From the NCBI GenBank assembly GCA_025060505.1, contig JANXBU010000018.1:1-34880 (forward strand): a stretch of DNA of 34,880 bases, in the 5' to 3' direction. Of this stretch, positions 19,272-21,266 are shown one piece after another (within the stretch, counting starts at the first letter, position 1; each line of letters starts with the position of its first letter). Under the pieces are notes generated by a model. It had not been told where the DNA came from, searched no databases, and was given only the letters and a program-made list of their open reading frames with translations. Both the position numbers and the translations under genes were made by a program. The stretch is from Candidatus Calescibacterium sp. Its GTDB lineage: Bacteria > Calescibacteriota > Calescibacteriia > Calescibacteriales > Calescibacteriaceae.

Positions 19272-19499
19272 TTAAAGCATCACTTTCTTTTTTATGAGAG
19301 GTTTTCTTTTTACCTCTCGCACAAGTAGATTAGGTTTTCGTCCTCGCTTTTCTGGCGGAGGCGGAGGATTTATTTTGTTTATCTCAACAAGTGTATCGCT
19401 TATGTGTCCGCATATGAAACATCTGTGAGTTTTGATTGTGCCGTCTGTTGTTGTTATTACATCAATAAACATAAAGCCATTACATCTTTTACATCTCAT
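19272..19499 (-). CDS. small zinc-ribbon protein with AT-hook-like tail
   Basis: The 75-residue protein has two Cys pairs, C3-C6 (MRCKRCNG) and C27-C30 (RCFICGH), making a likely four-cysteine zinc ribbon. A proline stretch (PPPPPEKRGRKPN) follows, whose RGRKP resembles an AT-hook DNA-contact motif, and then a basic tail ending KKKVML. Similar small CxxC proteins occur in many environmental bacteria without assigned function. DNA or RNA binding is a reasonable guess. A strong ribosome site GGGAGG lies 9 bases before the ATG but sits within a perfect hairpin (19502-19531). The gene is divergent from the SSS symporter. Confidence 0.82.
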   Translation of the reverse strand: MRCKRCNGFMFIDVITTTDGTIKTHRCFICGHISDTLVEINKINPPPPPEKRGRKPNLLVREVKRKPLIKKKVML

Positions 19500-19501
19500 C
19501 A

Positions 19502-19531
19502 GTTCTTTCCTCCCTTTTTAGAGGAAAGAAC
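19502..19531 (-). promoter_or_regulatory. perfect 11-bp hairpin covering the ribosome site of the zinc-ribbon gene
   Basis: GTTCTTTCCTC (19502-19512) and GAGGAAAGAAC (19521-19531) are exact inverted repeats with an 8-base loop. In the minus-strand transcript the 3' arm holds most of the GGGAGG ribosome site and ends 2 bases before the ATG at 19499. Folding would hide the ribosome site. As DNA, the same palindrome could be an operator for the divergent pair. Confidence 0.8.
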
Positions 19532-19601
19532 CTTCAACCACTCCCAATGAAAAATTATCGGAATCCAGAAAAAACACTTGAATGATTCATATTTTTTTAG
19601 A

Positions 19602-21266
19602 ATGATTGAACTAAAAATTTTTGATTGGATCATTATAATTTCATATTTTTTATTTATTTTAATCATAGGTTGGTATTTGAGAAAATGGAGTTATGGAAAT
19701 GAAGATTTTTTCTTAGCTGGTCGTAGAAACTCAGCACTGGTTTCGGCATTCGCTTTTCTTTCAGCTAATTTAGGATCCCTTGAAATTTTGGGGTGGACTG
19801 GTGCATCTTACAAGTATGGGATGCTAACTGCTCACTTCTACTGGATAGGAGCAATTCCCGCGATGCTCTTTTTAGGGATATTTATGATGAAATTCTACTA
19901 CAAGAAGAAAATTTTTTCTGTTCCTGGTTATGTAGGTGAGAGATTTGATAGAAAAACCAGAGTTCTGAGTGCAGTCTCATTTGGTATAATGACGCTCCTT
20001 ATGTCTGGAGTGAACATATACCTTATGGCTCTGATATTCAAGATGATTCTTGGTTGGAACTGGCATATAAGCATTTGGGTTTCGGGTCTGACGGTTGGAA
20101 TATATGTAGCACTTGGAGGGCTTATGTCTGCTATATTCACTGAGGTTGTTCAGTTTTTTCTTATATGGCTTGGGCTAGTTCCTATAACATTTTTCGCAAT
20201 AGCAGAATTCAAAGGTCTCTCTTTTTTACAAAATGTCCCAGCCGAGATGGCATCTTTGTGGGTGAATACACTTGATCCTTCAAAAAATCCTATGGGAGTT
20301 GACTTTCTAGGAATAATACTTGGACTTGGCTTTGTTCTTTCTTTTGGGTATTGGACAGCGGATTTTCTTGTAATCCAAAGAGCCTTTGCAGCAGAAAGTT
20401 TAAGGGCAGCAAAACTTGCACCAATTATAGCTTCGTTCTTCAAAATGTTTCTGCCATTCGTTGTCACATTCGGAGGAATAATTGTTTTCATCCTTATAAA
20501 TGAAGGAAAAATCTCACTGCTTGTTGACGAAAACGGAAACACCATAACAGACTCTGCTCTGCCAGCCCTTATTATGCGATATTTTCCACCGGGATTAGTT
20601 GGACTCGGTGTGACGGCTTTACTCGCTGGATTTATGGCTGGACAAGCTGGAAACATCACTGCTTTCAACACCGCTTTTACTCAAGATATCTACAAACCTA
20701 TATTCAGAGAAAATGCTTCCGAAAAAGAACTTGTAGCCGTTGGAAGAATATCCACAATAGTCGGAATACTTATATCAATCGGAGCTGCATACTGGGCTAT
20801 GGAATTTCCAACAATAATGGATTACATACAAGCGATATTCTCATGGGTAAATGCTCCGCTTTTTGCAGTCATACTTCTTGGAATGTTTTCAAAGAGAATA
20901 ACCTCAGCTGGTGCATTCTGGGGCTTACTTATTGGTATGGTTTTCTCCTTTCTTGTATTTATAGGAGTTAGGCAAGGTATAATTCCACCAGAATATATAA
21001 CATTCTACAGTAATCCAAGTGAGATGGCTTTGAATCTTTGGAGAGCCTTCTGGAGCTTTCTTGTCTCTTTCGCTATAACTATATTTGTTTCAATCTTTAC
21101 AAAGCCAGAGAATCCTGAGAGAATAAAAGGACTTGTAAAAGGTGTGGAGGACATCGATGACAAAACCGAAGAAGATGATGAGAAAATAAGTTTTTATTCA
21201 AAACCAGAATTCTGGGCACTTGTTTCACTTTCTGTACTCGTTCTACTAAACATAGTATTCTTCTGA
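19602..21266 (+). CDS. sodium:solute symporter (SSS family)
   Basis: A membrane protein of about 554 residues with some 13-14 helices. Family landmarks include the early FLAGRRNSALVSAFAFLSANLG, LGWTGASYKYGM, the segment FGYWTADFLVIQRAFAAES typical of SGLT-like members, and AFNTAFTQDIYKPIF in the central helix region. It should import a sugar, polyol or organic solute with Na+ across the inner membrane. The substrate cannot be read from sequence. A TTG at 19578 opens the frame earlier, but the ATG at 19602 gives the expected short N-terminus (MIELKIFDWIIIISYF). It is a single gene, divergent from the zinc-ribbon gene. An acidic linker precedes the last helix (DDKTEEDDEK). Confidence 0.93.
   Translation: MIELKIFDWIIIISYFLFILIIGWYLRKWSYGNEDFFLAGRRNSALVSAFAFLSANLGSLEILGWTGASYKYGMLTAHFYWIGAIPAMLFLGIFMMKFYYKKKIFSVPGYVGERFDRKTRVLSAVSFGIMTLLMSGVNIYLMALIFKMILGWNWHISIWVSGLTVGIYVALGGLMSAIFTEVVQFFLIWLGLVPITFFAIAEFKGLSFLQNVPAEMASLWVNTLDPSKNPMGVDFLGIILGLGFVLSFGYWTADFLVIQRAFAAESLRAAKLAPIIASFFKMFLPFVVTFGGIIVFILINEGKISLLVDENGNTITDSALPALIMRYFPPGLVGLGVTALLAGFMAGQAGNITAFNTAFTQDIYKPIFRENASEKELVAVGRISTIVGILISIGAAYWAMEFPTIMDYIQAIFSWVNAPLFAVILLGMFSKRITSAGAFWGLLIGMVFSFLVFIGVRQGIIPPEYITFYSNPSEMALNLWRAFWSFLVSFAITIFVSIFTKPENPERIKGLVKGVEDIDDKTEEDDEKISFYSKPEFWALVSLSVLVLLNIVFF

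Follow-up and report, generated by a model that had tools for sequence, protein, structure and literature searches.

A probable translation-control hairpin that hides the Shine-Dalgarno sequence of a zinc-ribbon gene in Calescibacterota

The window analysed here, a stretch of 34,880 bases from a Candidatus Calescibacterium sp., contains an exact inverted repeat that ends two bases before the ATG (19499) of a gene for a 75-residue zinc-ribbon protein, which raises the question of whether the repeat works in the mRNA of that gene, as an operator in the DNA, or not at all. On the minus strand the order from hairpin to start codon is GGTTCTTTCCTC-TAAAAAGG-GAGGAAAGAAC-TG-ATG, the letters preceding the open reading frame being GGTTGAAGGTTCTTTCCTCTAAAAAGGGAGGAAAGAACTGATG, and the two arms are 100% complementary. 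The first-pass annotation had described an exact 11-bp repeat with an 8-base loop that overlaps the Shine-Dalgarno (SD) sequence and stops two bases short of the ATG, and a check of the sequence bears this out; the hairpin is a real and unusual feature. We propose, with a probability of about 0.75, that it controls translation in cis from within the short 5' leader of the zinc-ribbon gene, and we infer an action at the level of the mRNA that reduces translation. The features of the locus are collected in Table 1.

Table 1. Coordinates of the hairpin, its parts and the adjoining features in the window.
Feature	Position	Strand	Basis or remarks
SD-sequestering hairpin	19502..19531	-	Exact inverted repeat and RNA fold; present in 5/5 genomes
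Left arm of hairpin	19531-19521	-	11 bp, exact
Hairpin loop	19520-19513	-	8 nt
Right arm of hairpin	19512-19502	-	11 bp, exact
SD sequence GGGAGG	19509..19514	-	Mostly within the right arm; 9 bases 5' of the ATG
Zinc-ribbon protein gene, 75 aa	19272..19499	-	Open reading frame, alignment of relatives, structure model
Sigma-28-like promoter TCAAGTGT-N11-TCCGATAA	19555..19581	-	13/16 consensus bases
Sodium:solute symporter gene, divergent neighbour, not counted in the system	19578..21266	+	Pfam SSF, E = 4.7e-56

Folding of the leader RNA gives a stem of 13 pairs (19532-19501) with a predicted energy of -19.0 kcal/mol, in which the exact 11 bp are extended by a G-U pair at the base and a U-G pair at the top; the fold has a z-score of -4.7 and none of 200 shuffled leaders was equally stable. 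The hairpin is the sole separated, non-overlapping inverted repeat of at least 10 bp within 30 nt in the window, while the background statistics, drawn from about 509 kb of the same genome, hold only one other exact hairpin of at least 11 bp with a loop of 3-12 bases, short contigs masked to N only being excluded from this count. In a sample of 288 starts that follow an SD-like motif in the genome, taken from crude predictions of open reading frames, the zinc-ribbon leader ranks as the most stable (mean -4.8, s.d. 2.9), and no other combines a paired SD with an energy of -15 kcal/mol or lower. That the SD would be paired in the mRNA, as had been claimed, agrees with the most stable predicted fold in all five Calescibacterota leaders. 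The window has no Rfam match at the gathering score and no known RNA family is assigned. Pairing of the G-rich leader with the left arm, as an anti-sequestor, is no better than in shuffled leaders, so that this competing structure gives no indication of a two-state switch.

A gene for the protein occurs in each of the five Calescibacterota genomes searched (G000, that of the window, and G001 to G004), which cover three genera, the relatives showing 47-59% identity to the window copy, and in each genome the hairpin lies one or two bases 5' of the zinc-ribbon ATG. The arms read GGTTCTTTCCTC..GAGGAAAGAACT in G000, GGTTCTTTCCTC..GAGGAAAGAGCC in G004, GGTTCTTTCCTCT..GGGGGAAAGAGCC in G002 and, in the closely related G003 and G001, GGCTCTTTCCCTCC..GGAGGGAAGAGCT and AGCTCTTTCCCTCC..GGAGGGAAGAGCT respectively, and an SD equivalent (AGGAGG or GGGGG) keeps the same distance from the ATG throughout. 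A covariance model scores 65.8-75.1 bits at the zinc-ribbon gene of each genome, compared with a best score of 22.9 bits elsewhere in the five, and standard pairs fill 95.4% of the pair cells of the alignment as against 55-72% when the arms are slid. Fold z-scores range from -4.2 to -6.5 in the five leaders and from -1.5 to +1.2 in those of five distant zinc-ribbon relatives. Two of the 13 pairs have changed on both sides (U-A to C-G and G-C to A-U) and other changes in the arms pass through G-U, a pattern of structural covariation that, with five sequences, is suggestive, 294 of 500 column shuffles scoring as high, which is not significant. A stronger argument than covariation is the constancy of the left arm, which holds no SD and codes for nothing yet is conserved as strongly as the right arm, amid promoter-to-hairpin DNA that drifts in sequence and length among the five genomes. 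The absence of conserved pairing in relatives had been named beforehand as the outcome that would speak against translational control; pairing is kept in 5/5 genomes, and this conservation together with the sequestered SD of the predicted fold lends support to the idea. With five sequences, conservation of sequence could still be mistaken for conservation of structure.

A scan of 193 relatives with the covariance model returned only weak matches outside the phylum (up to 31.6 bits), all unrelated to the zinc-ribbon gene except one before a distant zinc-ribbon gene in G046, which rests mostly on similarity of SD and codons. Distant zinc-ribbon relatives outside the phylum have the N-terminal ribbon in common with the protein and lack the hairpin, and among the genomes searched the element looks specific to the zinc-ribbon gene and to Calescibacterota. 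Neither exact patterns nor the covariance model turned up a convincing further copy within the five genomes; a regulon was rejected, none of the weak matches (22.9 bits or less) being a conserved hairpin at a gene start. Coupling to a leader peptide was likewise rejected, for a frame that runs through the hairpin, although open in some genomes, is shifted by one-base indels in the loop and is not conserved. Two distant zinc-ribbon genes of an uncharacterised family (MRCPKCSGIMV...CVNCG) in other phyla, L021 in G191 and L022 in G046, are preceded by hairpins of 7-8 bp that touch the SD directly 5' of the start codon and are not significant against shuffles. Another strong and apparently unrelated hairpin, CTTTCTCTCCCCTC-GAAA-GAGGGGAGAGAAAG, lies directly 5' of the start of a secreted-looking protein of 501-505 residues (L145; G007 contig 20, 110381-110432).

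The five proteins share invariant Cys3-x2-Cys6 and Cys27-x2-Cys30 pairs and end in a basic tail, NPPPPPExRGRKPN, of which RGRKPN is invariant across the window protein and its four relatives. The 75-residue frame with two cysteine pairs and RGRKP is as the first-pass annotation described it; its zinc-ribbon/AT-hook label fits as a description, while no curated protein family reaches its cut-off. The structure model (mean pLDDT 68.6) consists of a small beta ribbon and an unstructured, low-confidence tail. It matches no known fold convincingly, the top Foldseek matches being RPB9-type zinc ribbons of weak likeness (E of about 0.5). A search of the genome contigs with the single protein as query gave no matches, and an alignment-based search returned the same four relatives and one short proline-rich match; the relatives found by profile belong to Candidatus Calescibacterium nevadense, bacterium HR19 (HRbin19) and two other MAGs, and the genome of the window falls into one family with the named ones. 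From its cysteine pairs and basic tail the protein may bind nucleic acid.

Upstream of the hairpin a TTCCGAT block is invariant in all five genomes, about 58-84 bases 5' of the ATG, and, as expected if promoter and hairpin are two separate elements, its distance to the hairpin varies. The sigma-28 consensus is TAAAGTTT-n11-GCCGATAA (PMC2859248); against this consensus, picked after the sequence had been inspected, G000 matches 13/16 bases and G001, G002 and G003 each match 12/16, all with an 11-base spacer, G004 being weaker. Among 480 sampled genes the upstream region of the G000 zinc-ribbon gene is the best and no other reaches 12, while the reversed-pattern control on 480 genes reached 12 seven times and 13 never, and a sigma-28 pattern allowing two mismatches shows no genome-wide enrichment over the control. 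FliA scores above its family cut-off in four of the five genomes, flagellins are encoded in all of them, and one flagellin gene of G002 is preceded by TAAATTAA-n11-TCCGATAA. On balance the zinc-ribbon gene appears to have a sigma-28-like (FliA) promoter, and the conserved sequence suggests membership of the flagellar regulon.

In the mechanism that we propose, transcription would probably start from the sigma-28-like promoter, the -10 block of which lies 25-50 bases upstream of the hairpin, and the pyrimidine-rich left arm would then pair with the SD and keep 30S subunits off. With the stem closed, little zinc-ribbon protein would be made unless the stem were opened; alternatively, binding of a factor might lock the stem further. 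Our leading guess for the trigger, itself tentative, is that the basic zinc-ribbon protein represses its own mRNA autogenously, an attractive idea because the protein has invariant cysteine pairs and the conserved basic RGRKP tail. Ribosomal-protein operators are, as a class, autogenously repressed mRNA leaders of nucleic-acid-binding proteins, and the zinc-ribbon leader resembles them in that a hairpin covers the SD before the gene of a small basic protein presumed to bind nucleic acid. Unlike their products, however, the zinc-ribbon protein is not a known ribosomal protein, reaches no family cut-off and has only putative binding activity. Another RNA-binding protein, a small RNA or a helicase is a possible if somewhat doubtful trigger, and a constitutive brake that answers to no signal seems rather unlikely, as does control by temperature.

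The last of these would make the hairpin an RNA thermometer, the stem melting at the upper growth range to free the SD and raise the zinc-ribbon protein on heat stress. Calescibacterota, also called EM19 or Calescamantes, live in springs near 80 °C and have reported flagellar genes (PMC4791363), and by prediction the five stems are similarly stable at 80 °C (-3.7 to -6.2 kcal/mol), with their stability lost near 90-95 °C. In design, too, the leader is like the hairpin-type thermometers ROSE, fourU and cyanobacterial hsp17, with a single short hairpin that carries the SD in its 3' arm. At 75-80 °C, however, the stem is still predicted to be mostly closed (-3.7 to -8.1 kcal/mol) and would open only above the reported habitat temperature of about 80 °C, nearest-neighbour energies themselves being poorly tested at 80-95 °C. 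Zipper-type thermometers usually carry mismatches in the stem. The G000 stem has none, the stems of the family being exact or nearly so, and, unlike ROSE, fourU and hsp17, the element has no Rfam match and precedes a gene that is not a heat-shock gene. The same energies bear on translational control in general, as at 80 °C a stem of only -3.7 to -6.2 kcal/mol might yield to a ribosome when the SD is strong.

A reading of the palindrome as DNA is less probable again. It would be the site of a dimeric repressor, perhaps the zinc-ribbon/AT-hook protein, for its own or the divergent promoter, and is suggested by the exact 11-bp palindrome that the window holds between two divergent genes and by the RGRKP motif of the protein. 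The more specific proposal of the first-pass annotation, an operator for the symporter gene, finds no support: the symporter adjoins the zinc-ribbon gene in G000 and G002 only, whereas the neighbour is ispE in G001 and G003 and a codirectional kdsA in G004 (both named from reading their translations), and because the neighbours differ while the hairpin stays, the hairpin tracks the zinc-ribbon gene. Against an operator of any kind, the loop and with it the spacing of the arms varies by several bases among the five genomes, one arm has an extra base in G001 and G003, and G-U pairs on the sense strand keep the RNA pairing yet break the dyad symmetry of the DNA. Moreover, the site is always found immediately at the ATG, on the downstream side of the predicted promoter, and no second copy occurs in any of the five genomes. 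The comparison of sequences therefore speaks more for an RNA element that would act on the gene it precedes than for a DNA operator of the symporter. A separate, imperfect A/T-rich palindrome with 25-nt overlapping arms, 80% complementary, is found at the start of the symporter gene (window 19597-19638).

Control by CsrA, which would open or close the hairpin within the flagellar programme in the manner of the ymdA or psl leaders, is similarly improbable. In its favour, csrA and flagellins are present in all five genomes, FliA passes its cut-off in four and a sigma-28-like promoter precedes the gene, and the hidden SD is reminiscent of Escherichia coli ymdA, where CsrA opens an SD-sequestering hairpin, and of Pseudomonas aeruginosa psl (PMC7652899). 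The preferred site of CsrA, however, is an ANGGAN exposed as single strand in a short loop, and stems of high stability seem to be disfavoured (PMC7652899). In the five hairpins, by contrast, the loops are A-rich (for example AAAAAG, GAAAAAA or GAAAA), no unpaired GGA is present in a short loop, the GGA is paired within a stem much longer than those of typical CsrA sites, and no GGA is conserved upstream of the hairpin. Elsewhere, in a flagellin leader of G002 (L103, contig 23), a hairpin GGCTCC-TTTTATGGAG-GGAGCC with AUGGA in its loop resembles a CsrA site and lies downstream of a sigma-28-like promoter.

Least probable of all is a chance or non-regulatory origin, in which the conservation would come from shared descent or from a spacer that folds by coincidence; the genomes are few and some (G001, G003) are close, but conservation in 5/5 genomes across three genera, in proteins only 47-59% identical to that of the window and amid non-coding DNA that has drifted, together with the extreme position of the element within its own genome, largely refutes it, and the hairpin is very probably a real translation-control element rather than a chance palindrome.

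A leader hairpin that hides the SD is a known kind of element. The zinc-ribbon hairpin is a new example and, as far as our searches show, one not described before, kept throughout a candidate phylum of hot-spring bacteria; among the papers searched, none reports a zinc-ribbon protein that is autoregulated through such a hairpin. The most far-reaching version of the proposal, a phylum-specific autogenous switch tied to flagellar sigma-28 in which the zinc-ribbon/AT-hook protein would bind the SD hairpin of its own mRNA at about 80 °C, is speculative and on present estimates unlikely, but if true it would add a new family of post-transcriptional regulators in an uncultured, deep-branching phylum. 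If the hairpin works as proposed, it would represent SD-hairpin control near 80 °C, a temperature at which a stem of 13 bp has no more than marginal stability, and would offer a way to approach an uncharacterised zinc-ribbon protein whose gene probably has a promoter of the flagellar type.
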